The position numbers were made by a program, and so were the translations under genes. From assembly GCF_039962255.1 (NCBI RefSeq), contig NZ_JAMPKY010000005.1, forward strand, positions 124,001-188,000: DNA of 64,000 bases. Reading direction: 5' to 3'. The notes under the pieces are model-generated. The model was not told where the DNA came from. It ran no database searches and saw nothing but the letters and a program-made list of their open reading frames with translations. This document shows positions 29,594-59,775 of this stretch, piece after piece. The stretch comes from Leptolyngbya subtilissima AS-A7 (GTDB lineage Bacteria > Cyanobacteriota > Cyanobacteriia > Phormidesmidales > Phormidesmidaceae). Positions within the stretch are counted from its first letter, which is position 1; every line of letters begins with the position of its first letter.

Positions 29594-30418
29594 CTAAATG
29601 CCTTCAAAGGTGCTGTGGCGAAAGGTGTAGCCTGCTGCTTTGAGCTTTTGATTCGACACGCGCACGTTGTAGGGTCGAGCACTGGGTTGTGATGGATCCC
29701 ACTGTACGGGGTCTAGGTTGTTGGCTTGGCAGACGCGATCGATCAGCTCGCGCACGGTGGGAATCTCGTCTTGCACCAGGTTGTAGAGGCCGCTGAGGGA
29801 GTGGGTTTGGGCATGGGCGATCGCCCCTACGATGTCGTCTAAATGAATCCAGTTGCTGCCTTCGTGGCCGGAGCCGGGGCGGGTTGTGCCAGCGGCGCGG
29901 CTGTAGATTTTGACCAGCTCTCGTCCGGGGCCGTAGATGCCGCCGAGGCGGAAGATGCAGACTTGGCGATCGGGTGTAGCCGCTCCTAGCAGCGTTTGCT
30001 CGGTCTCGGCCATGATACGAGCATTATCGGTGGCGGGTTTAACTGGGTCGTCTTCTCTTACCCAAGCCCCGTCGTAGTTGCCATACACGGAATAGCTGCT
30101 GGTGAAAATAATTTGCTTCAGGTTGGGAGCGCGATCGAGAGCGCCCACAACCGTTCGAGCAGTCTTTAAGTAGACTTCTTCGTAGTTGGCCTGGCGACCG
30201 GCCCCTACGCAGATGAGCAGTGTGTCTTGATCTTGTAGGAGAGTGACAATGCCGCCTGCATCTGACCCCTGCACTACCTGCACAGCCGCTGCTATGGAAC
30301 GTAACTCCTCAATCCGGTCGGGGTTGGTAGTGGTAGCGGTGACCTTGACGCCTTGACTGCCCCAAAGCTGGGCCACTGCTTTGCCCACGTATCCACAGCC
30401 CAAAATTGCTGCATTCAT
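29594..30418 (-). CDS. NAD-dependent epimerase/dehydratase-like protein (extended SDR)
   Basis: A 274-residue Rossmann protein. AAILGCGYVGKAVAQLW is the nucleotide-binding GxGxxG, TTTNPDRIEEL ends the second strand, and IIFTSSYSVYGNYDG holds the active-site Ser and Tyr of extended SDRs, though the YxxxK Lys is not clear. FRLGGIYGPGREL and WIHLDDIVGAI are family landmarks. Closest in style to YeeZ-like epimerases of unknown substrate. It overlaps rnc by 4 nt and is translated after it. Confidence 0.82.
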   Translation of the reverse strand: MNAAILGCGYVGKAVAQLWGSQGVKVTATTTNPDRIEELRSIAAAVQVVQGSDAGGIVTLLQDQDTLLICVGAGRQANYEEVYLKTARTVVGALDRAPNLKQIIFTSSYSVYGNYDGAWVREDDPVKPATDNARIMAETEQTLLGAATPDRQVCIFRLGGIYGPGRELVKIYSRAAGTTRPGSGHEGSNWIHLDDIVGAIAHAQTHSLSGLYNLVQDEIPTVRELIDRVCQANNLDPVQWDPSQPSARPYNVRVSNQKLKAAGYTFRHSTFEGI

Positions 30419-31068
30419 GGCTTTAAAATCCTCAGTGCTGCGATCGCGGCGTTTTTACGTGCTTCTTTGATGCTGCGGCCTTGGCCGATGCCATAGCTTG
30501 TTCCGCCCGCCCAAACTTCTAGGGTAAACACTTTGGCGTGGTCTGGGCCAAGCCGCTCTTTTTCTAGGTAGCTGGGCAATGTACCACCCATGTGGGCCTG
30601 TACATATTCTTGCAGCTCGGTCACGGGGTCGGTGGCCTGACGGTCTAGGGCGCGATCGATCAGGGGGCTCATGAGCGCCTCAACATAGCTATAGGCGGCG
30701 GCAATGTCAGCGTCTAAGCGGTAAGCGCCAATCACCGCTTCAAATATGTCGGCCTGAACGCTGGGATTGTGGCGCTCGTGCTGGGCTCCAGCCCCTAGGC
30801 GCATTTGGTTGGGAATGCCTAGCTGCACTGCTATCTCTGCGAGGGAAGGCTCATCGACGAGGCGATCGCACCGCTGCGACATTTCTCCCACTGCCAGGTG
30901 AGGATAGCGGGCAAAGATTAAGTCGCGCACCACAACTTCAAGAATGCCGTCGCCCAAAAACTCTAGGCGATCGTAATCGGGGCCTTCGTTGGGGTGTTCG
31001 TTGGCGTAGCTGCTGTGGGTGAGCGCTTGCCGAAGCAAAGCTGGATTTTGAAAACTAGGCAGAAGCAT
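30415..31068 (-). CDS. rnc: Ribonuclease III
   Basis: About 217 residues from ATG 31068 (the frame is open to 31116 across a repeat arm). The signature RLEFLGDGILEVVV with catalytic Glu/Asp, the second acidic site in VQADIFEAVIGA, and a C-terminal dsRNA-binding domain (TELQEYVQAHMGG through GRSIKEARKNAAIAAL) are all present. The enzyme cleaves double-stranded RNA in rRNA and mRNA processing. Its start overlaps a dispersed hairpin region upstream; the epimerase-like gene follows with a 4-nt overlap. Confidence 0.93.
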   Translation of the reverse strand: MLLPSFQNPALLRQALTHSSYANEHPNEGPDYDRLEFLGDGILEVVVRDLIFARYPHLAVGEMSQRCDRLVDEPSLAEIAVQLGIPNQMRLGAGAQHERHNPSVQADIFEAVIGAYRLDADIAAAYSYVEALMSPLIDRALDRQATDPVTELQEYVQAHMGGTLPSYLEKERLGPDHAKVFTLEVWAGGTSYGIGQGRSIKEARKNAAIAALRILKP

Positions 31069-31088
31069 TTTAGGCGCACTAGACAGGA

Positions 31089-31155
31089 AAACCGGGTTTC
31101 TTGCTCTAAACTTCAAAGCTAATTTAGCTATTAAAGCTTAGTCGAAACCCGGTTT
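31089..31155. repeat. AAACCGGGTTTC nested hairpin repeat, copy 2
   Basis: AAACCGGGTTTC (31089-31100) and GAAACCCGGTTT (31144-31155) pair perfectly over 12 bp; the loop holds AGCTAATTTAGCT-type sub-repeats. It is the same design as 5957-6010, just upstream of rnc. Confidence 0.65.
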
Positions 31156-31169
31156 CAAAACTGGTGAGC

Positions 31170-31208
31170 CTAGAACAGTTAATTGGTGCTCATGAGGTAG
31201 CGATCGCA
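31170..31208. repeat. Left direct repeat of the J-domain/HNH cassette (gltD-end copy)
   Basis: This 39-nt stretch matches 33406-33444 at 32 of 39 positions (25-nt core, two mismatches: TGGTGCYCATSAGGTAGCG then ATCGCA). On the minus strand it reads CDRYLMSTN-stop, the counterpart of the gltD C-terminus [12 protein letters not shown]. Similarity stops at both edges. It looks like an attachment-type duplication; part of the match is a HIP1 site. Confidence 0.6.
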
Positions 31209-31279
31209 GTTTCCTACAACCCGCATCCTAATCGCTTGCCATGTTGCTAGTGAAGTAGGGCGTAAAGCCTATGTTACTG

Positions 31280-32293
31280 TTAGGCCGCAGGTGGAAAAGA
31301 CTTATAACCTAATGCAGATTTTGGACTGTGCTGACCAAACAAGGTTTTGACCTTGTAAAGCTTTAGCAAGGCTTCTTCAGCGTCAGGATATCGCTCCATA
31401 AGGAAGTTGATCATCTCATCGGCCGTACAGCTTTTCTGAGTGCCACCGTTCCAGCTATGAAACTCCTTATGAACCTCCTCATTAAGGGTTATAAGGTTAT
31501 CTATGCAAGCGGCTAAGTCTGGATAGTCTCTGTCGGAGTAAATATGGTGAGCAGCGAGATTAAACTTATGAGACTTACCATATTTACTGCGAGTAATTTG
31601 GCAAGTTTCTTTATCTCGCTTTTTGGCAGCCGCTTTGGCTTTAGTAATCTCTTTTTGCCGAGCTGTCTCGGTGTCAATGATTAAATTAAGCGTCTTCTTC
31701 CCTACTACCTCGACGGCTTTACACCATTCTCTACGGTCTTTTATAGTCAATGACTGAGCTAGTTCCCGGCTTAAACGATCAAAACCAGATAAAGAGTAAT
31801 ATCTAACTCCATCGAAATCGTCGAAATCTTCAAATTTAACAAGTGGCCTTTCAGAGCGTTGAATTGAATCAAAAGCTCGGTTAAGCCGGGCATAGCTTGT
31901 GCAGAAGATGTTAACTACATCCTTCTTAGACAAAAAGTATCTGTTGTTTCTAGGACTTAGAGAACTACAGTTTTCATGGATTTTGCGGCGAACAAAAGCA
32001 TTCCGGAGTTTTTCTTTATGTCTCGTTATAAACTCAACCAGGTTTTCCCAGAGGCTTTTTGGCTCTACTGAGTCCATGTACTTTGCGATCGCAAAGGCTC
32101 CATGCTCTGCAAAGATCCGTTCTTTGAGCTTCTTGTTTAAGTAGATGTAGTGATCGTTCTCTCTTAAATCCCACTCGTCATTAGGATCAGACTCAAAGAA
32201 GACTATGATTTTATCTAACTTACTAACAGAAATCCCTAAGGCATCTGCTAGATCTTTCTCCTTGATGGTGAAATTCGAGGTGTCCTTTGCCAT
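31280..32293 (-). CDS. HNH endonuclease-like protein of a J-domain cassette
   Basis: A 337-residue, Lys-rich protein, clearly more AT-rich than the neighbours. The N-terminus starts with an HTH-like segment (LADALGISVSKLDKIIVFF). The C-terminal third is an HNH domain: C231, His249-His250 in AAHHIYSDRDYPDLAACIDNLITL (Asn266) and HKEFH (275-279), with the ββα metal fold expected. The second zinc-binding CxxC of some HNH proteins is absent. It begins 2 bp after the J-domain gene stop, so the two form an operon. DNA cleavage is an inference. Confidence 0.75.
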   Translation of the reverse strand: MAKDTSNFTIKEKDLADALGISVSKLDKIIVFFESDPNDEWDLRENDHYIYLNKKLKERIFAEHGAFAIAKYMDSVEPKSLWENLVEFITRHKEKLRNAFVRRKIHENCSSLSPRNNRYFLSKKDVVNIFCTSYARLNRAFDSIQRSERPLVKFEDFDDFDGVRYYSLSGFDRLSRELAQSLTIKDRREWCKAVEVVGKKTLNLIIDTETARQKEITKAKAAAKKRDKETCQITRSKYGKSHKFNLAAHHIYSDRDYPDLAACIDNLITLNEEVHKEFHSWNGGTQKSCTADEMINFLMERYPDAEEALLKLYKVKTLFGQHSPKSALGYKSFPPAA

Positions 32294-32295
32294 TT

Positions 32296-32853
32296 TTAAG
32301 CCTCCGCACCAATGCTCTGGTACATGGTGTTGATGCGGTCAAAAACTTTCGTGTCGTCCGTGCCCGAGCCGTCTGGATGATACGTTCTACTTAAAGTGTG
32401 ATAAGCCTTTTTGATATCTTCTTTTGAAGCCGACTTTGGATCGAGGTCAAATACTCGCCAAGGTAAGAAGTACTTGAAAATATCAATCCCATTGATGCAG
32501 CCGTAGCCCTCTTCCTGATCTTCTCCAGGAAGAACGCCGATAAACTTCCGATATAAAACTTCCCAAGAATCTTTCAAGCCTAGGTTCATTTGCTCCATGC
32601 CATCTGTGGCCATTTTGAATGAACTAGATTTCTTCAGCTCATTTGTATTTTTAACCTCAAAATAGTTATAAACAGCCTTTTTAAGTTCAGCCATTGGCAA
32701 AGGCTTGATTTTCTTATCTGCTTTATCTTTCTTCTTATGATTTTCAATAACGAATTGAGCAAATTCCAGAAGTAATTCAGAGTCAACTTTGTAATCCTTG
32801 GCGAGGCGACTGACCTCTTTTTGAATAAGTGAATTAAGCTGGTTGGACGGCAT
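32296..32853 (-). CDS. Protein with C-terminal J-domain
   Basis: A 185-residue Lys-rich protein. The J-domain is at the C-terminus: WRVFDLDPKSASKEDIKKAYHTL, the HPD triad at residues 159-161 and FDRINTMYQSI. The HPD that stimulates Hsp70 ATPase is intact. The N-terminal ~110 residues (LLLEFAQFVIENHKKKDK...) are not recognised. Paired with a downstream HNH gene, this could be a defence or toxin-type module in which the chaperone system controls the nuclease; this is speculation from synteny only. Confidence 0.75.
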   Translation of the reverse strand: MPSNQLNSLIQKEVSRLAKDYKVDSELLLEFAQFVIENHKKKDKADKKIKPLPMAELKKAVYNYFEVKNTNELKKSSSFKMATDGMEQMNLGLKDSWEVLYRKFIGVLPGEDQEEGYGCINGIDIFKYFLPWRVFDLDPKSASKEDIKKAYHTLSRTYHPDGSGTDDTKVFDRINTMYQSIGAEA

Positions 32854-33277
32854 AATAAATTCGCTTTAGATTTGAGGGTAGAAACCGCGTATAGCTACCT
32901 ATCGTCTGGTAGGCACTACTAGCTTTCCCTAAATTTTGCTCCACTCCAACAACCTAAAAGATTTTTGCTCGGAGGTTCAAATGTTCTATTTAAGGTTGTG
33001 ATTCGCTCAATTTTTTGCTGACTGGTAAAACTGAACTAGTGAATTCCCTGAAAGAAAGTGTTTTCTTTATACATAACGGTATGAGTTGAGCGGCGATCAC
33101 CGTCTGTCATTTACTCAAACTATCATTGCTACTTAGCAGAGGGTTACTCAATATATTTAGATGGCTAAAAGTTTATTTAGCCTTGGTTAAACATTTATCC
33201 AACCTTGCGATCGCCCGTATCAGTCTCTCGCTACAACCATTGCAACCTCTGGTAACCTCACCCGCCACTACAGAATG
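32854..33277. other. AT-rich spacer upstream of the cassette, no protein gene
   Basis: About 420 bp between the J-domain start and a plus-strand terminator. No convincing coding frame is visible. A minus-strand promoter for the cassette must lie here, and the terminator at 33278 implies that a plus-strand transcript may cross it. The base composition is like the cassette, not like gltD. Confidence 0.5.
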
Positions 33278-33306
33278 AATCCGTTGATTGAAACAGCGGA
33301 TTTTTT
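33278..33306 (+). terminator. Plus-strand intrinsic terminator without upstream gene
   Basis: AATCCGTTG (33278-33286), loop ATTGAAA, CAGCGGATT (33294-33302), then a T-run (TTTTTT with the stem end). One G-T pair is in the stem. It reads rightward; no plus-strand protein gene precedes it within the cassette spacer. Confidence 0.7.
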
Positions 33307-33319
33307 GTAGGCAAGCCAC

Positions 33320-33373
33320 AAAAACTCAACCCTCCAGGCTCATAAGTCGTGCTTACGGGTCTGAAGGGTTGAG
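33320..33373 (-). terminator. gltD transcription terminator
   Basis: On the minus strand CTCAACCCT (33373-33365) pairs with AGGGTTGAG (33333-33325) and TTTTT follows at 33324-33320. The stem is 9 bp with a ~31-nt loop. It lies 33 bp after the gltD stop and so ends the gltB-gltD message. Confidence 0.75.
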
Positions 33374-33405
33374 CTGGACAATAGATTCGACTTCGAGTTA
33401 GTGGG

Positions 33406-33444
33406 CTAGGGCAGCTCAGTGGTGCCCATCAGGTAGCGATCGCA
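33406..33444. repeat. Right direct repeat of the cassette = gltD 3' end
   Basis: The last coding nucleotides and the stop codon of gltD; imperfect copy at 31170-31208. See the left repeat for the comparison. Confidence 0.6.
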
Positions 33445-34890
33445 CTCCCGCGCCGCCCCACGCCCTTCATTGATCGCCCACACCACTAGGCTCTGGCCCC
33501 GACGACAATCCCCAGCCGCAAACACGCCCGGAATTGAAGTGGTGTACTGCTCATGCTCAGCCTTCACATTGCTGCGGCCATCCTTTTCTAGGCCCAAAGC
33601 ATCGATCAGCGGCTGCTCCGGACCAAGGAAACCCATGGCCAGCAGCACCAGATGGGCGGGAACAACCTTCTCGGTGCCGGGCACGTTCTGCGGCACAAAC
33701 CGCCCGTTTTCGTCCTTGCCCCACTGAATCTGCACCGTGTGGACAGCTTTCACGTTGCCCTGCTCATCGCCCTCAAACTTGGTGGCTGTAGTCAGGTAGG
33801 CACGGGGGTCGTCGCCAAACATAGCGGCGGCTTCCTCCTGACCGTAGTCCATCTTGTAGACCTTGGGCCACTCGGGCCAGGGGTTGCCCGCCGAGCGGGT
33901 TTCGGGCGGCTGGGGCATAATTTCCACCTGGGTGACGCTGTTGCACCCGTGGCGAATGGATGTGCCCACGCAGTCGGTGCCCGTGTCGCCGCCGCCGATA
34001 ATTACCACATCCTTGCCCGCCGCCGAGATGTAGTCGTTGCCGGGGTAGCCATCCAGCAGCGATCGCGTATTGGCGGTGAGAAACTCCATCGCAAAGTGAA
34101 TGCCCTTCAGCTCGCGCCCTTCGATGGGCAGGTCACGGGGCTTAGTGGAGCCAGTGCAGAGCACTACAGAGTCGAACTCATTGAGCAGATTTTCAGCTGA
34201 AATGTCTTTGCCGACTTCAGTGTTGCAAACAAAGGTCACACCTTCGGCTTCCAGCACATCTAAGCGGCGTTGCACCACCTGCTGCTTATCGAGCTTCATG
34301 TTAGGAATGCCATACATAAGCAGGCCGCCGGGGCGATCGGCCCGTTCGTACACGGTCACCCAGTGGCCTGCCGAGTTGAGCTGGGCGGCAGCGGCCAGTC
34401 CAGCGGGGCCAGAGCCAATCACCGCGACTTTCTTGCCCGTGCGCTGCTGCGGTGGCGTGGGGGTAATCCAGCCCGATTCCCAGCCCTTTTCGGCAATGGA
34501 ATACTCAATATTTTTGATTGTCACCGGGGGGTTGGTGATGCCTAGCACGCAAGAACCCTCGCAGGGGGCGGGGCAAACGCGCCCGGTAAACTCGGGGAAG
34601 TTGTTGGTCTTGTGCAGTCGCTCCAGGGCTTCTTCCCACAGGCCGCGATAGACCAGGTCGTTCCATTCAGGAATCAGGTTGTTGACGGGGCAACCGCTGG
34701 CCATGCCGCTAATGGTCATGCCCGTGTGGCAGAAGGGGGTGCCGCAATCCATGCAGCGCGCGCCCTGGGTGCGGAGGTTTTCCTCCGGCATGTGGAGGTG
34801 GAACTCGTCCCAGTTGCGAATGCGATCGGCAGGGGCGACTTCTTGCGCCACTTCCCGCAGATATTCCATAAAGCCAGTCGGTTTTCCCAT
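33406..34890 (-). CDS. gltD: Glutamate synthase small subunit (NAD(P)H, GltD)
   Basis: A 494-residue protein with an N-terminal Fe-S region ([32 protein letters not shown]) and two dinucleotide-binding folds: [17 protein letters not shown] (FAD) and [15 protein letters not shown] (NAD(P)H), plus [21 protein letters not shown] at the end. It passes electrons to GltB for glutamate synthesis from glutamine and 2-oxoglutarate. It lies downstream of gltB with a ~140-bp spacer holding a dispersed repeat. Its 3' end is the insertion point of the J-domain/HNH cassette. Confidence 0.95.
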
Positions 34891-49994: not shown

Positions 49995-50378
49995 TTAAGT
50001 CACCGTAATATCGCCTAGCAGGATGCAGTTTGGATTGGTATTACCTACCCATATTTCGAGGTAGTAATTGCCAGAGGGCAAGTTATTCCAGGTAAAATTA
50101 GCAGGTCGAGAAATTGGAAACCTGGCTGATCCAAAACTTCGATCTGGCCGATACCAAGACTCGCTCTTGTGTAGCTGAATATGATATTCAGCTACTGGAC
50201 AACTCGCGGGCCGATCCCATCGTGCCGAGCTGCTAACTGTAACAGCACCACGAGTGACTGGAAAGATTCTTGAATTGGGTAATCGAGCCCGAATTCTAAA
50301 TGTGCTCGTGAATTCATCGATATCTGTAAAATCGTCGAAGTCAAGATCTAGATTATCAATCTGGAATTTCCGATACAT
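49995..50378 (-). CDS. Hypothetical beta-rich protein
   Basis: A 127-residue protein with an Asp-rich start (NLDLDFDDFTDIDEFTS), then alternating hydrophobic strands ending in SGNYYLEIWVGN and CILLGDITVT. This suggests one small beta-sandwich. TGGAG precedes the ATG. No family is recognised. It lies 43 bp from the DUF4438 gene and 111 bp from its upstream neighbour. Confidence 0.55.
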   Translation of the reverse strand: MYRKFQIDNLDLDFDDFTDIDEFTSTFRIRARLPNSRIFPVTRGAVTVSSSARWDRPASCPVAEYHIQLHKSESWYRPDRSFGSARFPISRPANFTWNNLPSGNYYLEIWVGNTNPNCILLGDITVT

Positions 50379-50488
50379 GACTTAATCTCCACAGATTAAC
50401 CACAAAGGACTATCAATATAAGAAGATAGACATCCTGCTGCTATCGCTCTTCGTAACAAGTAAAGTTAAAGCCACCTATTGAATTAGG

Positions 50489-51355
50489 CTAATGCAGGGA
50501 ATACCAAAACCCCTGAGCACCTTGCCAGAGGTCTATAGAGGGCTCCAAAAACTCCGATGACTCCAGCGCAGTGAAGGGCAAACTTTCTGACCAATTTTGT
50601 GTCGTGCCCAAAGTTGCAGCGGCGGGCACAACGAGATGAATAATACTCAAATTCAAGCCAGACCAGAGAAATTTAGAGACCCCAGCATGAACTAGAACAC
50701 TACGAAAGTAATTTTGCTCAATATCGGCCATTACATTGTCAAATCCAATTTCTTGACAGGCAATGCCCCATTTGGTGAGCGTGCTACAAACACGAGGAGG
50801 CTGATTCTGAGCTAGTTCTGCGGTGGTTCGGTGGGTCAAAATGCAGGCAGGTCGGGCGGCGGCTAAGGCCGCTAAATCTCGGTAGGCTAGGGTTAAGACA
50901 TCATCCCTGGCCAACTGTTCTCCTATCTGACCATCAAGACTTTGGGCCAGGGATTCCCAACGCCAAATCAAATCGCTATCAGCTCCAGCGGGTACAAACG
51001 ATTCGCCAATCACATCAGCTAAAAAGTTGATGTTGCGGGTGGTGGGGTCAACTCGAAGCCGCAGGCGCTCCCACTCTTGCAGCGATCGCAACATCTGCTG
51101 CGACACCTCCTGTCGCTCAGTTGGGGGCAACACCTCAATCTGCTTTCCTAGCAGAGCTTCTGGCTGCTCCACATAAAACTGCGGGTTGTCGAGCATATGC
51201 CAAAACTCCCGCACAATCCACAGCTCCATCAGCTCGCTGAGCTGTTTGACTAGGGGCAGGCCGTAGATTGACAGCGCCAGGGCCGGGTCAAGCACACAGG
51301 CCCACCGCCGCTGGGTGAGGGTAATCGATACATCCGAGACCAGGGTTCCTGTCAT
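50489..51355 (-). CDS. Hypothetical protein of the ten-gene block
   Basis: A 288-residue protein with AAGGGG before the ATG. Mixed alpha/beta: an N-terminal CVLDPALALSIYGLPLVKQL, helical middle (VSQQMLRSLQEWERLRLRVD), an Asp/Ala-rich segment (ARDDVLTLAYRDLAALAAARP), ACILTHRTTAELAQNQ, and a hydrophobic C-terminus. VLDP near the start and the later DD/D residues loosely recall PIN-like proteins, but the motif spacing is not convincing. I do not recognise a family. Confidence 0.5.
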   Translation of the reverse strand: MTGTLVSDVSITLTQRRWACVLDPALALSIYGLPLVKQLSELMELWIVREFWHMLDNPQFYVEQPEALLGKQIEVLPPTERQEVSQQMLRSLQEWERLRLRVDPTTRNINFLADVIGESFVPAGADSDLIWRWESLAQSLDGQIGEQLARDDVLTLAYRDLAALAAARPACILTHRTTAELAQNQPPRVCSTLTKWGIACQEIGFDNVMADIEQNYFRSVLVHAGVSKFLWSGLNLSIIHLVVPAAATLGTTQNWSESLPFTALESSEFLEPSIDLWQGAQGFWYSLH

Positions 51356-51397
51356 TGTTCTACCCCTTGCTTAAACTGCTATTGATTGAACGAATCG

Positions 51398-51973
51398 CTA
51401 GCGATCGAAATCCAACACATCCCGAGGCCTTAAATCCTGGTTGCTCACGGTGGTTCTGCGGGTAAGTGGGTCATAAACATGCTTTTCGAGGGTTCGCCCT
51501 GACTGAGGATCAATGAGTAAGAACACGCTACGTGCCCCTGGATCGTTGCCAATCACTTCTCGCTGATGACGCTGCAGGTCATGGCGGCTAGTATCTACCT
51601 CAATGTTGATGCGTCGCCCACTACGAGGATCGACCGCTTGAATATCGGGTTGATTGCGGGCTGTGACTAGGCGCTCAATGCGTCGTCGCTGCCCCCGTCC
51701 CCGAATAACGGGTCGCTGGCGAGGAATGACCTGGGCCTGCTCGTTGCGCAGGGTATTTCGAGATACCCCCCACTGCTGCAGCCTTCTCATAATTTGGTTC
51801 CATCGCGTCACCTGAGTATTGAGGGCGGAACGACCCCGGTTTGGGGGAGGCGGAAAACCCCCTCCTCGGGCGTAGTCACCCTCTTTCTCCTGAAGCCAGT
51901 CGTCTAGGCGATCGCGGCCATCGAAGGCTGATACTGCTCTTGGCAAGTAGGCCATACCGTAGGGTCTTCTCAT
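51398..51973 (-). CDS. Possible nuclease-like protein of the ten-gene block
   Basis: About 191 residues from ATG 51973, preceded by AGAGG; ATG 51982 is also in frame. A Pro/Arg-rich N-terminal half (GGGFPPPPNRGRSALNTQ, PRQRPVIRGRGQRRRIERL) leads to a compact C-terminal domain: NQPDIQAVDPRSGRRINIEVDT, RHQREVIGNDPGARSVFLLIDPQSG, YDPLTRRTT. The D...xEVD spacing recalls restriction-endonuclease-fold cores, but the Lys of ExK is not there, so activity is uncertain. Confidence 0.5.
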   Translation of the reverse strand: MRRPYGMAYLPRAVSAFDGRDRLDDWLQEKEGDYARGGGFPPPPNRGRSALNTQVTRWNQIMRRLQQWGVSRNTLRNEQAQVIPRQRPVIRGRGQRRRIERLVTARNQPDIQAVDPRSGRRINIEVDTSRHDLQRHQREVIGNDPGARSVFLLIDPQSGRTLEKHVYDPLTRRTTVSNQDLRPRDVLDFDR

Positions 51974-52016
51974 AGCTAGCATCCTCTAAAGCGTTGCGTG
52001 AGGCGTTACCACCGCA

Positions 52017-53108
52017 TTACAGTCGGGCAGAGTTGATCCCGATCACCCGCTTGAGCGCCGGGGTTACCCCCGCAAACCCCCGGCCTTCGGGGGTCATGCG
52101 GTAGGCGGCAAGCCAGGCTTCTGCATGGGACCCCATGGGCCGCAGCTCCGACTGGAAGAGGATGGGGTCGATCGCGGTCTTGAAGTCGTTGTCGGCCACA
52201 AATTGCAGTATGCGCCGCCCGCTCTCGGCCATTTTGGCCCGCTGCGACGGTTCCGAAATGCCCCCCAGGTATCGGTTCGACACAATTTCGATCACATCCC
52301 ATTTGGTGTTGGCGTCAAAGGCTTTTTTGATGTCAGGGGTGTCAAGCAGCTCTAGCACCGAGTTGAGGTAATGACCGGTCTCGACCGTCAGGGCCAAAAT
52401 GTTGCCATAGGTAGAGCGATCGAGGGCATAGCGCAGGTCCAACCCGATCCGCTGCACTGTGCCGATGCTGCCAAAGGGGCGCTGCTCAATCAGCGGCCCG
52501 CCGCGGATCACTTCGCCGATCAACAAATCGCGAAAGTATTGCCCCACCGCCACCATAAAGCCCACAAACTGGCGGTGAAACTGCTGGTTGACGATCGCCC
52601 CCGCCGGAGCCGGAGCAGTGCCGTAGTTGAAGGCGCGGCGGTAGGCCACCATGCGATCGCGCACCCCGTAGCGCAGTGGCTTCCATTTCTCTAGCAGGTA
52701 AAGCCCCCTAGCCCCTGGCCCCCGCTGAATGCGCATACGACCCTCGCGAAACAGCCGCTGCAACACCTGCACTACCTGGAACACTTTCATGCGCTCGTGC
52801 TGATAGATGTAGTACAACTCTGCCGCCGCGTGGAGCTGGCTGGGCACCACCGAGTCGTCAAAGTTGGGCTGAATGTAGGGGTAGGTGACGTTTTCAAAGG
52901 GCACGGGGCCTTTGCCGCCAAAGCCAATTAAATCGAGAAAGCCATCGGGTGCGCCTGTTCCATCAGCAGCATCTTTGAGTAGCTCCCCAAAGCGGTCTTC
53001 AAGCTGCTGTTCATACTGCTGGCGCTCCTCTGGCGGCATTGAGGACAACTGCTCTCGCAGAAAGTTTGCCCACAAGCGTTGAATTGTCTCTGTCGTTTGA
53101 AAGCTCAT
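52017..53108 (-). CDS. Hypothetical helical protein of the ten-gene block
   Basis: A 363-residue, mostly helical protein: an acidic start with MPPEERQQYEQQLEDRFGEL, FENVTYPYIQPNFDDSVVPSQLHAAAELYYIYQHERMKVFQVVQVLQRL-type helices, basic RIQRGPGARGLYLLEKWKPL, a gly-rich segment and a long C-terminal helical region. No motif or family is recognised. It is 58 bp after the 225-residue gene. Confidence 0.5.
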   Translation of the reverse strand: MSFQTTETIQRLWANFLREQLSSMPPEERQQYEQQLEDRFGELLKDAADGTGAPDGFLDLIGFGGKGPVPFENVTYPYIQPNFDDSVVPSQLHAAAELYYIYQHERMKVFQVVQVLQRLFREGRMRIQRGPGARGLYLLEKWKPLRYGVRDRMVAYRRAFNYGTAPAPAGAIVNQQFHRQFVGFMVAVGQYFRDLLIGEVIRGGPLIEQRPFGSIGTVQRIGLDLRYALDRSTYGNILALTVETGHYLNSVLELLDTPDIKKAFDANTKWDVIEIVSNRYLGGISEPSQRAKMAESGRRILQFVADNDFKTAIDPILFQSELRPMGSHAEAWLAAYRMTPEGRGFAGVTPALKRVIGINSARL

Positions 53109-53165
53109 GGCATTCGTCCTTAGCCTAAGGAATAGTTACTACGGGTTTGGTGTTGCTGAGGGCTT

Positions 53166-53843
53166 TTAGCTACTGGTTGTGTCACCCTGCACTAAAGAAA
53201 TTTGGGTATTGACTGTGGGTTCAGTAGGTTCAGTATTAGGTGCTTCTAGCTGCTCGCTGCACCGTTTGGCAAAGAACTTCAGGATGCGATCGCGAAACTC
53301 ATGTATCTCTACCAGTCGCTCGGCGCGATCGCTAAAGTCAGGCTCAACGTCCTCAAAAAGGGCATTAAAATAAGCCGTAAATTGGTTATATTGTTCTGCG
53401 CTAAGACGGTCTAGATTTCTCTGCTCATCTAGAATCTCAACGCAGTTTCTATAGAGAGCGTGGTCGGAGTTTTTATAACTAGCAAGCGTGTCATTGTTGC
53501 TAGCTTTACTGCCCCTGCCTTTGCCTTTTTTAGCCGTGAAGCTTGAATCTGTCATCAAGCTTTCAATCTCATTTAGCGTACGCATAAACGTAAACGCATG
53601 CTGAATACAAAAATCATCTGCATCTTTTAGAAGAATTAAGTCAGGAATTCCCGCTACTTCTCGGATTAGAACTCCTATTTGCTGAGGTAGCAGGTCAACT
53701 GCCTCCGTTAAAGCCTGAACCTTAGTCGCTAAAGTGGCATTAGATGCAGTATTGGTATCGCTTAACGTAAGTAAACCGGCATTGAGAGAATTAACGGACG
53801 CTTGAATGTCCTCCCAGATGCCAATGAAAGCGGTTGAAGGCAT
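53166..53843 (-). CDS. Hypothetical helical protein with Lys-rich linker
   Basis: A 225-residue protein with GAGGTG before the ATG. An N-terminal helical, Ser/Thr/Leu-rich part (LNAGLLTLSDTNTASNATLATKVQ) resembles coiled-coil segments, followed by FCIQHAFTFMRTLNEIESL, a KKGKGRGSKAS linker and a second helical part (AERLVEIHEFRDRILKFFAKRC). No family is recognised. It is 24 bp downstream of the 654-residue gene. Confidence 0.5.
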   Translation of the reverse strand: MPSTAFIGIWEDIQASVNSLNAGLLTLSDTNTASNATLATKVQALTEAVDLLPQQIGVLIREVAGIPDLILLKDADDFCIQHAFTFMRTLNEIESLMTDSSFTAKKGKGRGSKASNNDTLASYKNSDHALYRNCVEILDEQRNLDRLSAEQYNQFTAYFNALFEDVEPDFSDRAERLVEIHEFRDRILKFFAKRCSEQLEAPNTEPTEPTVNTQISLVQGDTTSS

Positions 53844-53867
53844 AAGAACACCTCACGGCAGTAAAGA

Positions 53868-55832
53868 TCAGTAATCACGGTTGAGGCCATCGGGCAGCAC
53901 ATTGTTAACTAGACCATCTAAACTAGTTTCGTAGTGAGGCGGCAGGCTAATGTTGTATTGTTCGCAGATAGGAGTGCCGCTCACCATCTCGATGGCGCGC
54001 TCAATTACCTGCGACAACCCTGTAAAGACTTCATCGTAAGTAATGCAGCTAGGTGCCATGGTCATTACCAGGTCTCGCCAGCGCGATTCGGTTTCTCGTT
54101 GAATGCACAACTCCTGATGCAAAATGTTTAAATAAGGCGCTAGGACTGCAGACGGTTCAAGTCTGTCAGCCAACCTAGAGTTTGATCGCAAAAGCTGAGC
54201 ACGACCCTGATGAGAAAGCCCATAGACTCGACCAATCGACCCAACCGTTAAAGGAGAGGATTTTAGTTCGCTTAAAGACTCATTTAGCTCCCTTTGCTGG
54301 TTAGGGAAATTAGCTAATTGAGCTAACACGCCCTCGCCAAACCAAGTCACCTCTTCCACAATCCGCCGAATAATTGGATCATTTTGACTAAGGGTTGGCC
54401 ATAGCTGGGCTTGAATGCCGCCGTTCAACCCTAAAACACGATGGAGCGGGTTTTCTGGCAAGATGCATGGACGTTCTACTTGGCCTAAAAACACCTCAAT
54501 TAAGAAACCATAGGCTGCCGCCCGCCGTTCGGGTTCGCCAAAGTTTTCGTTGCCCAAGGCGTAGAGGTCGATGGAGCGATCGACATCGTAGAGAATCTTG
54601 TCGAGAATAATCTGGCAGCGTACGGCCTCGGAGGTGCAGCCACACTGCAAGAAGCAATCGAGCTGTTCTGCCAGCACGCCGCGCTGGATAATTAAGGCTA
54701 ACAGGCGTTGGTCGGCGTCTTCTAGCCCGCCGATGCCGTAGAGACCATAGAACAGGATAGGTGGACGGGCAACGCGCAGCAGACGGAAGCCGCCAGAACT
54801 GTTAAACGAATCGGCAAACAGTTGCAGCGCTGAGAGAAACGTGGTCAAGGGGGGCGACTCAGGTACGACCAGGCGCTGACCAATCGTGATCAACCGACGG
54901 AACCGTTCCAGATCGAGTTGAGCCGTTGCGCCCAAAGCTCTGAGGCCATCGGCATTGCCGTGGGCGGCCCGTTGAATTAATACATCCATCATGCGCGACA
55001 GCTCGCCTTCTACGAGCAAAGCGCGCAGGTCGCCCTGCCCCTGCTGCTCTAAGGTGTCGTAAAGACGGCGGTAGGCATCAAGGCCGCGAGGCCATTCATT
55101 AGGGCCATAGGCATCTTGGGTGGAGCCAACCAGGTTGCGGAGGGCATAGATGGCAGCATCGCGCCGTACCTGGAGTTCGCTGTAGGGAGCCTGGAGCAAA
55201 AACCGGCCGCCGCTAAAGCTGACATTGGCCAGCGATTCACCCATTATGACCAGCAGCACGGCGGCGGCTTCGTCGAGGCTCTGGGCTAGTTTGCGGTAGT
55301 TGATGTTGAGCGCTGGAGTCAACGCTCCTACTAGGCGGGCAATGCGTGCGTAGTCTCCCAGCGATCGCCTGGCCCCAAAGGCTTTATCTCGTTGGCGGGG
55401 ATCGAGGGCAAATCGGGCTGCCATTGACCCCTCCACCAAGGTTGAACGGATGGCGCTGGCCCACCCCTGGAGTTCTAGGGTGATATCTTTCAAAATGGTA
55501 TTGGTGGTCAACTCCTGCAAATCCCGCTCGATATCATCCATAGCCTGTTGCAATTCGGCATCGGATGAAGTGGAGGCTCGAGCAAGATTGAGCGGTGCGG
55601 TGGATGTCGTTAGAAACGGTACACCCTGGGCTTCGCGGCTGATGGCGATCGCCTTGGGTGTATCTTTGTAGCGAGTCAGCAGAGCCTCGGCCACCAACTT
55701 GGCATCGTTGGGGTCGCTGACCTTGAGTTCGCGGCGCAGCAGGTTATCCAATGCCATTCGCGCCGGGGTCGCGGGTACCGCTGAGGCAGCACCAGAACTG
55801 TTTTGGAACGGGTTGGTGGGTTGAGTGGCCAT
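53868..55832 (-). CDS. Large hypothetical helical protein of the ten-gene block
   Basis: A 654-residue protein, the largest of the block. A Ser/Pro-rich N-terminus (MATQPTNPFQNSSGAASAVP) is followed by almost continuous amphipathic helices with repeated ARxxALxxL patterns; YGLYGIGGLEDADQRLLALI and a CxC pair (LQCGCTSEAVRC) stand out in the middle. No catalytic signature or transmembrane helix is evident. It could be a scaffold or shell component; that is a guess from size and helicity. Confidence 0.5.
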   Translation of the reverse strand: MATQPTNPFQNSSGAASAVPATPARMALDNLLRRELKVSDPNDAKLVAEALLTRYKDTPKAIAISREAQGVPFLTTSTAPLNLARASTSSDAELQQAMDDIERDLQELTTNTILKDITLELQGWASAIRSTLVEGSMAARFALDPRQRDKAFGARRSLGDYARIARLVGALTPALNINYRKLAQSLDEAAAVLLVIMGESLANVSFSGGRFLLQAPYSELQVRRDAAIYALRNLVGSTQDAYGPNEWPRGLDAYRRLYDTLEQQGQGDLRALLVEGELSRMMDVLIQRAAHGNADGLRALGATAQLDLERFRRLITIGQRLVVPESPPLTTFLSALQLFADSFNSSGGFRLLRVARPPILFYGLYGIGGLEDADQRLLALIIQRGVLAEQLDCFLQCGCTSEAVRCQIILDKILYDVDRSIDLYALGNENFGEPERRAAAYGFLIEVFLGQVERPCILPENPLHRVLGLNGGIQAQLWPTLSQNDPIIRRIVEEVTWFGEGVLAQLANFPNQQRELNESLSELKSSPLTVGSIGRVYGLSHQGRAQLLRSNSRLADRLEPSAVLAPYLNILHQELCIQRETESRWRDLVMTMAPSCITYDEVFTGLSQVIERAIEMVSGTPICEQYNISLPPHYETSLDGLVNNVLPDGLNRDY

Positions 55833-55931
55833 GGTGGTTACAACATCCTGCGTACAAGGGGTTGAAAACGAAGCTTGGGCAAGGCTAGGGAATAGCCTGA
55901 GGGCCGACAGTCAATCGGGTTTGCTAGTGAG

Positions 55932-57218
55932 TTAGGCCGCAACGGCCTGTTGGGCCTCAGTCAGGGTCGCGATCGGCTGAGCATTGAGGGATGCCAGATG
56001 GCGAATCACCTGTTGTGACAACTCTTGGGACGAAATTTGACCCGAGGCCAGGGCGTAGCTAGCAGCACTGACGACGAACCGGGGCGGCAAATCGTCGGGC
56101 ACCCGCCCCCGGCTCAGGGCTCGCGAACCAGCGAGGATAGCCCTCTGGTCATCGCGGGTGAAGGGGATGACATCTGCCAGGGCACGCTGGGCCAAATTGC
56201 GCCGGGGCTGAAAGACAATTTCGTCCACAATCTGGGGAATTAGCTGGTCGGCGGTCGTCATTAGATAGGGGGGAATGCGCCCTGGGGCCTGGGGGGTATA
56301 GAGCCCCTGCCAGACCCGGCGCAGGCGGCTGGCCTCACCCCCAAAACCCAACCGCTGAAGCATTTCAGCCAAGATAAATACCCGTAAAAAGGCGGTAGGG
56401 TGGGCGCTGCCGGGGCGAAAGCTCAGCACCCGAGGAGCAGGGTTGGCTAGAAATATGGCCATGCCCCAGGCGGCGGCGGGGCCGCCCAGCAAAATTGCGG
56501 CCAAATCGGCAAAGATTTCCTTGTGCCAGCGGGCGTAGATGCGGGTGAGCATGGGGTTACCACTAAAGCGCAGGGCGCGGCGCACTACCGCCTGCCGATT
56601 CTCTTGCCAGATGCCCAAATCAGCCTGAATGTTGTGGGCTACCTCGTGAAGGAAGACGGCCTGCCAGGGGCTCTCCCGATCCCACGGGATACGGATGATA
56701 GGGAAGGGGTTGGGCTCGCCTAGCAGCCGGTTGAGCACCACCCCACGCCGAATGGTGGCGGGAGAAAAGCCATGCTCCATATAGCTCAAAGGCTTAAGCA
56801 GGGGGCCGCGAAACAGGTCGGGGGCGGTTTGACGAATGATGGCGTAGCAGTCAACGGCGATCGCATCGTGGGTTGCCAACCCTGGGGCAAAGGTAGTGCC
56901 CCGCTGGCCAAACACCTCGAAGAAAAGACCAAAGGCGCGTCGGGCGCGATCGAGTTCTCGCTCGACCAAGGCAATGTCGACAAGCATCTGCTGCTCGGGC
57001 ACCGCAGAGCTGTGGCGCTGCACCCGGCGCAGCCGCCGCCGAATTTCTCGGCCAATCTTGCTCAGCCGCTGGTTGGCGGCCCGAAAGTGAGCTGGGGACG
57101 GGGCGTAGGGCAGGTCTTGGGGGCGAATGCCCACTGAGGCATAGTCGATGCGGGTCAACCGCTTAGCTCGGGCGGCCAAGCCCCTGATTTTGACCCTTAA
57201 GAATTGCCGAGTGACCAT
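55932..57218 (-). CDS. HExxH zincin metallopeptidase-like protein
   Basis: A 428-residue protein; CGGAG precedes the ATG. A basic N-terminal helical half (KIGREIRRRLRRVQRHS) is followed by the zinc motif HEVAH at residues 191-195, E234 in KEIFADLAAILLGG as likely third ligand, then a hydrophobic AAAWGMAIFLANP and H273. HExxH with a Glu ~39 residues later points to a gluzincin-like fold. No signal peptide. As part of the block it could process one of the partner proteins. Confidence 0.65.
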   Translation of the reverse strand: MVTRQFLRVKIRGLAARAKRLTRIDYASVGIRPQDLPYAPSPAHFRAANQRLSKIGREIRRRLRRVQRHSSAVPEQQMLVDIALVERELDRARRAFGLFFEVFGQRGTTFAPGLATHDAIAVDCYAIIRQTAPDLFRGPLLKPLSYMEHGFSPATIRRGVVLNRLLGEPNPFPIIRIPWDRESPWQAVFLHEVAHNIQADLGIWQENRQAVVRRALRFSGNPMLTRIYARWHKEIFADLAAILLGGPAAAWGMAIFLANPAPRVLSFRPGSAHPTAFLRVFILAEMLQRLGFGGEASRLRRVWQGLYTPQAPGRIPPYLMTTADQLIPQIVDEIVFQPRRNLAQRALADVIPFTRDDQRAILAGSRALSRGRVPDDLPPRFVVSAASYALASGQISSQELSQQVIRHLASLNAQPIATLTEAQQAVAA

Positions 57219-57241
57219 GATCAGCTCCGGTGATTAACCCA

Positions 57242-57282
57242 GGGAAAGGGGTGGGGATGGATGGGTGATGGGGTGACCGGGT
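57242..57282 (+). repeat. G-run tract between zincin and acidic-repeat genes
   Basis: GGG and GGGG runs separated by 1-6 nt (AAA, T, ATGGAT, TGAT, TGACC): at least six runs, enough for a G-quadruplex on the plus strand. It lies in the ~105-bp spacer of the operon, so the run is on the template-opposite strand of the block. Confidence 0.55.
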
Positions 57283-57323
57283 AATGAGGTTGTGACTCCA
57301 TCAGGCCCATCCACTAGAGGCGG

Positions 57324-58490
57324 CTAACCGTGGCTGCGAACGGTCAGTGTGACCGGGCCGCGCAGGTTGAACTGGCGGGCTCTGCCGCAGGTGGGGCAGC
57401 CAGCCACGCGACCAATGCCACCGACAACGCCAGGGCGCGCCCCAGGTCGCATTACCCCAGGCCGTATGCCTCCCTGGCGACGCAGGGGTCGCCGAGCGGT
57501 CATGCCAGGCCGTGGCCGTGGGGCTCCCATCCGGCGGCGACGGCCCGTGGCTCCTCCAGGCCGTGCCCCCGGAGCTAGTGGCCGAGAGAGGCGGCGCACT
57601 ACCCCAGGGCGACGGGCTACCTGGGGAGTAATGCGGCGTACCGCTGGTCCTACTGCCCGGGCCGGCACGGGGCGGCGACCTACCGCTCGGGTCACCCGCA
57701 CCGCTGCTCTAGCGGCTGGGGCTCCTTGCTGGCGAGCTAGGGTTTGTACGGATTGCGATACTGCTCGCACCGCCTGCCGTCTGACAGGTAGCGCCGCTCG
57801 GGCCACCCGGGGAGCCGCTGTACGCAGGGCCATACCAGCAATCATTGGGGCGGCAGCATCAATGGCATCTTCTTCTTCGGCCATATCGATCATGGCATCG
57901 AGGACTTCAAACTCATCGGCTCCATCGGCTAGCAATCGTCCCGCCACACTGGCAATGCGGCCAATAGCCTGAGCCTGGGGTAAGGGAATGGCGCTGGCAA
58001 TGGGGGCAACGGCTCGGGCGACGCGGCCCACGACGGGGGCTACACGACGGGCGACATTCCCCACAGCCCGAGCCGCCCGCCGAATCCGCCGCAGAAATTC
58101 GTCGGTATCTTCAGCATCGAGGGCATCGGCCATGGCGTCTTCGAAGCTATCCATGGCGCTGTAGTCGTCGTACTCGTCGTAGGCATCATACGCATCGTAT
58201 TCGTCGAATTCGTCATAGGCATCGTAGGCCTCAAAATCGTCATAGGCATCGTAGGCATCGTCATAGTCATCAAATTCATCACCGCCCAAAACGCTGCCAG
58301 CGGCTTGACCAACGCCCCTGGCCAAGCCGCTGAGAAAGGCATCATCATCATCTTCAGCAGCGTCGTAGTCATCAAACTCGTCGCCGTAGTCGTCGTACTC
58401 GTCGTAGGCATTTTGAGCGACGGCAGGGCCCTCCGCTGCATCAAAGGACAGATCGTCCATCACATCCATTTCAAATGAGTTTTGGTACAT
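57324..58490 (-). CDS. Acidic-repeat/Arg-rich protein with DVMDDL start (paralogue A)
   Basis: A 388-residue protein with GAGGATTC before the ATG. The N-terminus FEMDVMDDL leads into a ~120-residue Asp/Tyr tract of EYDDY/AYDEYD units; then TDEFLRRIRRAAR and PIASAIPLPQAQAIGR. A helical region (AAPMIAGMALR, RAVSQSVQTLARQ) is shared with the neighbouring paralogue. A strongly Arg/Pro/Gly-rich tail (~residues 280-360) precedes CPTCGRARQ and the strand GPVTLTVRSHG. An extreme acidic-then-basic protein suits self-association or nucleic-acid binding. No known family was recognised. Confidence 0.6.
   Translation of the reverse strand: MYQNSFEMDVMDDLSFDAAEGPAVAQNAYDEYDDYGDEFDDYDAAEDDDDAFLSGLARGVGQAAGSVLGGDEFDDYDDAYDAYDDFEAYDAYDEFDEYDAYDAYDEYDDYSAMDSFEDAMADALDAEDTDEFLRRIRRAARAVGNVARRVAPVVGRVARAVAPIASAIPLPQAQAIGRIASVAGRLLADGADEFEVLDAMIDMAEEEDAIDAAAPMIAGMALRTAAPRVARAALPVRRQAVRAVSQSVQTLARQQGAPAARAAVRVTRAVGRRPVPARAVGPAVRRITPQVARRPGVVRRLSRPLAPGARPGGATGRRRRMGAPRPRPGMTARRPLRRQGGIRPGVMRPGARPGVVGGIGRVAGCPTCGRARQFNLRGPVTLTVRSHG
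58155..58410. repeat. In-frame codon repeat encoding the Asp/Tyr tract
   Basis: Short, imperfect units such as GTCGTAGGCATCGTA and CATAGTCATCAAATTC recur in phase within the DxYD-rich segment of paralogue A. Slippage during replication could change its length without frameshift. Confidence 0.6.
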
Positions 58491-58693
58491 GGTGAATCCT
58501 CGTCATGTCGTCGGTTATAAGCAGAGTCAATCAAAGCCATGTCTAGAAGCGGAGTTTTGCTTGTGAAAAACCACAAACCCTGAGCTGGAGTTGGCATGGA
58601 CCAAATCCAGTTTTAGCCGTGGAGTTTTGCCCGAAGAAAAACTCCCAGCTCACGCTAGGCGTAGGAGCAAGCGCAAACCTCAAATCTGGGAAC

Positions 58694-59638
58694 TTACAAA
58701 TAGCGAATCGTCAGCTCTACTGGACGGTCGAATACCAGCCGCTGCACGGTTCCTTTGGTCACGGTGACGCGCTGTTTAGTCGGTGCGGAAGCAGGGGGTA
58801 AGGTTGTTTGGGCCAGGCGATGTACCAGATCGTCGTTGGCGGCGACTTGGCGAGTAATGCGCTGAATTGCTCCCGGTAGCTCTGAGGGAGGGATTTGCTG
58901 CGCGCTGGCGTTACGCTGCACCACGTCCAGAATGCGGGGCATAGCAGCCATGGCTTGGCTACCGTGGTGCTGGGCTATGGTCTGGGTCGCCTGGCTGACG
59001 CTGTGCACTAGCCGCTGACGCTGGGTACGGGTGCCGCCCAGGTGATCAGCCAGAGTGCTGTGCAAACTCAGTCCAGCAATTACTGGAGCCACTGACGGGT
59101 TGTCGGGCTCAGCATCGGCCAGATCGAGAAAGGCCTCTAGGGCATCCTGTGGTTCGGCTCTTGAGCGGGCAAGCTGGGCCGCTAGATTGGCCACTGGGGT
59201 GATCGCCCGTCCGCTAGCGATCGTCGATTTGGGCGATGTCTTGCGGTGGGTAGAGCGCTGGCCATTCTTTCTAGCTGGGATGGGCTCACTGGCTATCTCT
59301 TGCAGCCCCTGGCTCAGCCGCCGCAAGAATGTATCCGTTGAAGGAGCGCTCAAAGCTGCTGCGATCGCCGCTTCAAGAGCATTGGGCAAGCTCCTGACGG
59401 CCCCTCTTGTCTGGGCACCCGTTGATAACTCTTGATGAATAGCCTGGTCAAATGAATGGTCTAGATCACTCAAGTGATCGCGGGAGTCGCCATAGTCATC
59501 TAGACCCTCTGCAAACGAGTCTTCCCCATCGTACTCATCCTCCGTATCCTCATAGTTATCGTAGAGATCGCGAGTAGATGAAAGGGGCGTTTCTGCAGCC
59601 AAGTCATCCATTACATCGCTCTCAAATGGCTGATCCAT
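58694..59638 (-). CDS. Paralogue B: DVMDDL-start protein, first gene of the block
   Basis: About 314 residues from ATG 59638, with GGAGGG before it. It begins FESDVMDDL as in paralogue A, has a shorter Asp/Glu tract (~residues 20-60), TDTFLRRLSQGLQEI, PVANLAAQL, APVIAGLSLHS, LVHSVSQATQTIAQH and ends RPVELTIRYL. The two proteins thus share one architecture; B lacks the Arg-rich tail and CxxC. As first gene, its transcript start is in the spacer facing thiC. Confidence 0.6.
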   Translation of the reverse strand: MDQPFESDVMDDLAAETPLSSTRDLYDNYEDTEDEYDGEDSFAEGLDDYGDSRDHLSDLDHSFDQAIHQELSTGAQTRGAVRSLPNALEAAIAAALSAPSTDTFLRRLSQGLQEIASEPIPARKNGQRSTHRKTSPKSTIASGRAITPVANLAAQLARSRAEPQDALEAFLDLADAEPDNPSVAPVIAGLSLHSTLADHLGGTRTQRQRLVHSVSQATQTIAQHHGSQAMAAMPRILDVVQRNASAQQIPPSELPGAIQRITRQVAANDDLVHRLAQTTLPPASAPTKQRVTVTKGTVQRLVFDRPVELTIRYL

Positions 59639-59775
59639 GGGACACCCTCCAAGGGTTAAACACATTGGCTTAATCACTACGATAGGCCGGTGTTTTAGGG
59701 AGCACTAGTCACACAATCTGGTTCACCTAAATCGTGTCCCACAAATGGAGGATGGAGAAATACCTAGGATTGAGT

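Follow-up and report, generated by a model that had tools for sequence, protein, structure and literature searches.

What is a pair of genes doing between a housekeeping gene and a second copy of that gene's own last codons, and how did it get there? The question is raised by gltD in a 64,000-nucleotide stretch of DNA from Leptolyngbya subtilissima AS-A7 (the window). Behind this gene lie a J-domain protein gene and an HNH endonuclease gene, and beyond them a decayed gltD end (Table 1). The explanation that best covers the whole locus, and that we hold with moderate confidence, is that a mobile J-HNH cassette was inserted at the gltD end by one-sided recombination and carries a toxin- or defence-like module.

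Table 1. Features of the gltD locus, in window positions.
Feature	Position	Strand	Remarks
rnc-like gene (RNase III)	30415..31116	-	Beyond the insertion; ORF as listed
Original gltD terminator-type stem-loop	31087..31157	-	GAAACCGGGTTTC ... GAAACCCGGTTTTC; behind the distal copy, in front of rnc
Distal repeat copy, decayed original gltD 3' end	31170..31208	-	Reads CDRYLMSTN-stop
HNH endonuclease gene	31280..32293	-	337 aa; C-terminal HNH: H249 H250 ... N266 ... H275 ... H279
J-domain protein gene	32296..32853	-	185 aa; conserved N-terminal domain and C-terminal J-domain, HPD = H159-P160-D161
Stem-loop directly behind the gltD end in use	33325..33373	-	CCCGTAAGCA hairpin; inverted repeat with 22-nt arms; probable incoming terminator
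Near repeat copy, gltD end in use	33406..33444	-	12 residues and stop; non-native flank behind
gltD (glutamate synthase small subunit)	33406..34890	-	Anchor gene; last codons are the replacement copy

The borders of the cassette are marked by a 39-nt direct repeat whose copies are identical at 32 of 39 positions and lie 2236 nt apart. Across 30 shuffles of the flanks the best match reached 22/39, and self-BLAST of the repeat gave E = 1.5e-5. Its 25-nt core, searched with up to 3 mismatches, occurs twice in the window's genome, and the reversed core used as a control had zero matches across 28 genomes. Between the repeats G+C is about 40-43%, against 57-60% outside, and the enclosed DNA holds two intact open reading frames, 2 nt apart and both in the direction of gltD. 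The locus has a gene-end repeat at both borders and a restored gltD, as integrase-type genomic islands do. No recombinase gene lies within the cassette, and a search of 13 Nodosilinea genomes gave no Phage_integrase match in the vicinity of gltD. The sequence-only reading had reported this repeat around about 2.2 kb of AT-rich DNA with two genes, had identified its copies as the last gltD codons and a second version that reads CDRYLMSTN-stop, and had noted that no integrase lies inside; all of these points were reproduced.

Comparison with relatives gives the event a polarity. By its nearest named records the window falls in the Nodosilinea group. Among the 28 Nodosilinea genomes whose gltD 3' flanks were compared, the J-HNH pair lies behind gltD in 7. 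In cassette-free genomes, gltD is often trailed by CTCGCTCACC and a stem-loop (GAAACCGGGTTTC...GAAACCCGGTTTC), and this native stem-loop sits after the distal gltD-end copy in the window, G019, G004, G011 and G012; its stem motif is rare, with one other partial match in the 64-kb window. When the flanks of these five occupied genomes were aligned to the native gltD flanks of eight other genomes, the distal flanks scored z = 4-14 and the near flanks, behind the gltD end in use, z = -1.4 to 2.3, about 0. The hairpin directly behind the gltD end in use was not found in native gltD flanks. A native stem-loop behind the distal copy and an unrelated flank at the near copy identify the distal copy as the original gltD end; the incoming DNA apparently brought both a new end and a new hairpin.

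Read in this way, the flanks show that DNA was inserted at the 3' end of gltD, since they supply both cassette-free sites and a direction for the event. This bears out the earlier proposal that insertion restored gltD and left its old end as a remnant. Neither of the two outcomes that had been named as refuting it was seen: the flank of empty sites matches that of the distal copy, and the cassette is far from universal among the relatives. A second gltD end is found only in genomes with a cassette at gltD, plus one orphan end in G025, and G022 keeps a degenerate distal copy and has no J-HNH pair. In G004 the copies are homologous from about -52 up to the stop codon and in G013 between -42 and +12, but in the window and G019 the homology begins only at TGCGATCGC (-36). 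The orphan gltD 3' end (L198, G025:C155:10387-10412) lies behind a dus-like gene, far from gltD, and is joined to a BrnT-like remnant; a HicB-like ORF is close by. Next to the insertion in the window, the true start of rnc is probably an ATG near 31068.

The two cassette genes belong to a recognisable family. The J-protein matches Pfam DnaJ at 36.1 bits (cut-off 27.8), and the HPD motif is present in 97% of 40 members. The HNH protein matches phrog_119 of PHROGs (E 4e-9) and falls below the cut-off of Pfam HNH_2; among 39 homologues, H249, H250, N266 and H279 are invariant, as are C231 and C289, and H275 is conserved in 97%. Its N-terminal part possibly comprises two winged-helix-like repeats, according to a low-confidence prediction. 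Structure predictions of both proteins from 6-7 sequences, with pLDDT of 57 and 45, were too poor for use, and searches of solved structures returned only generic J-domains for the J-protein and nothing meaningful for the HNH protein.

A survey of 386 cyanobacterial genomes found HNH homologues in 34 (about 9%) and J-protein homologues in 32. At nearly all of about 40 loci, as far as contig ends permit a view, the J gene lies immediately ahead of the HNH gene in the same direction, and the pairing within Nodosilinea is 14/14. The sequence-only reading had considered this pairing unusual and suggested looking for it elsewhere; the search succeeded at some 40 cyanobacterial loci, and the pair proves to be a conserved and widespread two-gene module. 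Within pair types dN/dS is 0.03-0.16, which indicates purifying selection on both intact cassette genes. Searches of phage, plasmid and viral collections returned no match to the HNH protein, and none of the literature searched connects J-domain and HNH genes in defence. As far as the papers and family libraries searched here extend, the J-HNH pair is previously undescribed, widespread and mobile, an uncharacterised family in roughly a tenth of the cyanobacterial genomes sampled. A very divergent J-domain and HNH pair with the same gene order occurs in G132 (G132:C77, L248), and it suggests that the two-gene architecture is older and broader than the family searched for.

The place behind gltD is not reserved for one cassette. 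In the five closest occupied genomes gltD itself shows uniformly small divergence (dS 0.28-0.33), and their HNH proteins share 97%, 93%, 75-77% or about 30% amino acid identity, with an HNH dS of 2.8 for WIN-L070. With gltD distances nearly equal and HNH identities running from 97% to about 30%, two subtypes of a single pair type must be present in the clade, together with a second type in G012. This second type, about 30% identical to the first, also occurs in G013 and G009; the G009 pair lies farther from gltD and has no repeat. BrnT/BrnA, HicA/HicB and DUF2283 genes are found behind gltD in various combinations in G001, G007, G019, G021 and G022. Gene and protein comparisons thus show a swapping of cassettes in the gltD slot. 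Beside this slot in G019 (L069:5266-7222), a native rnc 5' fragment is followed by an NYN-domain gene and then by a divergent complete rnc; judged by its layout, this is a second displacement event in the same style as that at gltD.

Beyond gltD, the family occupies dozens of unrelated sites in cyanobacteria. Another cyanobacterial family has the pair downstream of a CHAT-domain gene that is unrelated to gltD (L214-L216, L109). This slot is empty in G344, where the next gene lies 36 nt from the CHAT gene. In G434 and G254 it holds the J-HNH pair, and a copy of the CHAT end, 170-188 nt long, begins 5 nt after the HNH stop codon; G254 has an additional small ORF and a third partial CHAT-end copy. 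In G056 the slot is filled by a UPF0175 and DUF3368 pair. On this comparison the CHAT 3' end offers exchangeable gene pairs a second slot. Two further sites come from genomes that are each the sole member of their genus in the sample. In G181 (L127/L235/L236, G181:C135:56743-67348), a 42-nt repeat occurs seven times in the same orientation within 10.6 kb and separates HicBA-like genes, N6/N4 and C5 methyltransferases, the J-HNH pair, XisHI, a ParE-like toxin gene and Uma2. In G323 an EVE-domain gene has its 5' end repeated on either side of the pair, over a stretch of 64 nt.

Not every J-HNH insertion creates a repeat: most sites outside gltD lack one in their flanks. Flank repeats scoring at least 20 within 600 nt were found at 3 of 39 J-HNH loci, counting L129, whose copy lies just past the limit, versus 0.9% of control intervals; none was found at seven other Nodosilinea J-HNH sites. 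At L126 (G302:C1:1050599-1053099), a 105-nt element with 23-nt inverted ends stands on both sides of the pair. With these ends it resembles a miniature inverted-repeat transposable element (MITE), and it was left out of the gene-end duplications.

This spread of sites also weighs on a selfish reading of the cassette, in which the HNH protein would be a free-standing homing endonuclease that cuts cassette-free gltD ends, repair copies the cassette in and the J-protein is an accessory. In its favour, the protein is an HNH nuclease whose N-terminal part may bind DNA, again by low-confidence prediction, the cassette occupies the target that it would destroy, and the distribution is patchy. A homing enzyme fits poorly, however, with one family at dozens of unrelated sites, with two types about 30% identical sharing the same place at gltD, and with toxin-antitoxin genes that lack an HNH gene filling the same slots, and this reading is improbable. 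The pair resembles free-standing HNH homing endonucleases and phage HNH proteins (phrog_119) in its catalytic motif and its mobility, but differs in its obligate J-domain partner gene, its many unrelated sites and its absence from phage, plasmid and viral collections.

The junctions suggest that entry took place by homology-anchored one-sided (homology-facilitated illegitimate) recombination and not by an integrase. Incoming DNA would arrive with a gltD end and a terminator of its own, which would keep gltD whole. A normal crossover inside the shared gene would anchor this DNA, an illegitimate join somewhere in the final ~40-55 nt of gltD would duplicate that stretch, and the original end with its native stem-loop would be pushed about 2.2 kb downstream, where it would decay. 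One-sided recombination is preferred because no integrase lies nearby and because duplication lengths vary from 39 to 188 nt: 39-55 nt at gltD, up to 188 nt at CHAT, 42 nt seven times in G181 and 64 nt in G323. It also accounts for the involvement of gene 5' as well as 3' ends and for the orphan gltD end. A homologous anchor on one side and a displaced native end on the other are seen at gltD, at CHAT and at the rnc of G019. Less favourable to it are the closely spaced gltD junctions and the lack of a flanking repeat at most J-HNH sites elsewhere.

Integration at gene 3' ends with the gene restored is the classic pattern of integrative elements, and it commends another view of the same junctions. 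The gltD 3' end would be attB for a small integrative element, the repeats of about 55 nt would be attL and attR, and a tyrosine integrase would have acted in trans or since been lost. At gltD the crossover positions lie close together (-36 to -52), as a site-specific recombinase would also make them, and an integrase acting in trans there is for this reason possible. At one J-HNH locus (L128) a tyrosine integrase is encoded at a distance of about 1 kb, and the host carries integrases elsewhere. Yet none lies at gltD in any of the 13 genomes, the length and position of the duplication change between sites (42 to 188 nt at other genes), gene 5' ends are duplicated in G323 and at the G019 rnc, and most J-HNH sites have no repeat. 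An att site is on this evidence a doubtful account of the locus. The suggestion that the cassette is a degraded element of the integrase type is not supported, with both genes intact and under purifying selection, no integrase nearby and a duplicated stretch that varies by site. Integrative elements at gene 3' ends do share with the cassette a gene-end duplication around foreign AT-rich DNA, a restored gene and empty sites; they differ in that the cassette has no integrase, is only about 2.2 kb long and makes duplications of inconstant length.

One-sided recombination has a described counterpart. Effector-immunity arrays of the Vibrio cholerae type VI secretion system (T6SS) have been proposed to be built by homology-facilitated illegitimate recombination (PMC5361080). 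There, as here, a homology-anchored module displaces an old gene end that is kept downstream, repeated rounds build arrays, and intact antidote-type genes can outlive effectors. The present cassette departs from those arrays in being anchored in a housekeeping gene (gltD, CHAT), in carrying a gene pair that stands by itself and in leaving a displaced part that has no function. The ordered array in G181, in which each small cassette is preceded by the 42-nt repeat, recalls integron gene cassettes in layout, and unlike in integrons the repeats at other J-HNH sites are unrelated to one another. The J-HNH loci provide clear natural examples of how a small module can enter a genome downstream of an essential gene, with that gene left intact and apparently no integrase involved.

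What the cassette does is inferred more weakly: the module may be an HNH nuclease toxin or defence effector, with the J-protein restraining or targeting it. The strict pairing, the mobility, the company that the pair keeps and the loci at which the J gene stands alone suggest a nuclease effector for which the J-protein serves as antidote or adaptor. Two intact J-only loci were found (G078, G171) and no intact HNH-only locus, only fragments; this imbalance in the genomes hints at a nuclease and its antidote. The tightly paired two-gene operon is of the kind that defines type II toxin-antitoxin modules. Like BrnTA, HicAB and UPF0175/DUF3368, the pair is compact, patchy, horizontally exchanged and found in the same gltD and CHAT slots; unlike in those modules, its proteins are larger (185 and 337 aa) and one partner is a J-domain protein.

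The J-protein may link the module to the host. HPD-bearing J-domains in general act with Hsp70 (DnaK), and because of this behaviour DnaK is putatively involved. A new kind of chaperone-gated nuclease can then be imagined. The J-protein would hand the HNH protein to host Hsp70 to silence or aim it, an infecting phage or the loss of the cassette would set it free, and the modules would spread as cassettes that land at gene ends and provide the target gene with a new 3' end. This scheme is speculative and, taken as a whole, unlikely. If the J-protein does restrain or aim the nuclease, host Hsp70 would be tied to a toxin or defence switch.

A defence role of the pair, raised by the sequence-only reading, is possible. 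An anti-phage system without toxin-antitoxin behaviour would suit a nuclease with a regulator that is mobile and patchy, and in G181 the pair stands alongside HicA, restriction-modification, XisHI, ParE and Uma2 genes. Against it, the suggested search in defence islands placed most loci elsewhere: a scan of 124 neighbours of J-HNH loci showed no defence-island enrichment and mostly housekeeping genes, G181 excepted, and PADLOC had no match for the window's J-protein. Defence of this kind is a tentative alternative, rather unlikely as it stands. The only PADLOC matches of the HNH protein, weak ones to REase_II (E 5e-5), would also agree with a restriction-modification remnant, in which the HNH protein would be a restriction enzyme left without its methyltransferase, and a C5 methyltransferase gene lies directly upstream of the pair in L127. 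That is the one adjacent methyltransferase in about 30 contexts, however, and the conserved partner is a J-protein; such a remnant is very improbable. Elsewhere in the window, a series of ORFs on the minus strand, unclear in function, extends over 49995-59677, with patches of lower G+C.
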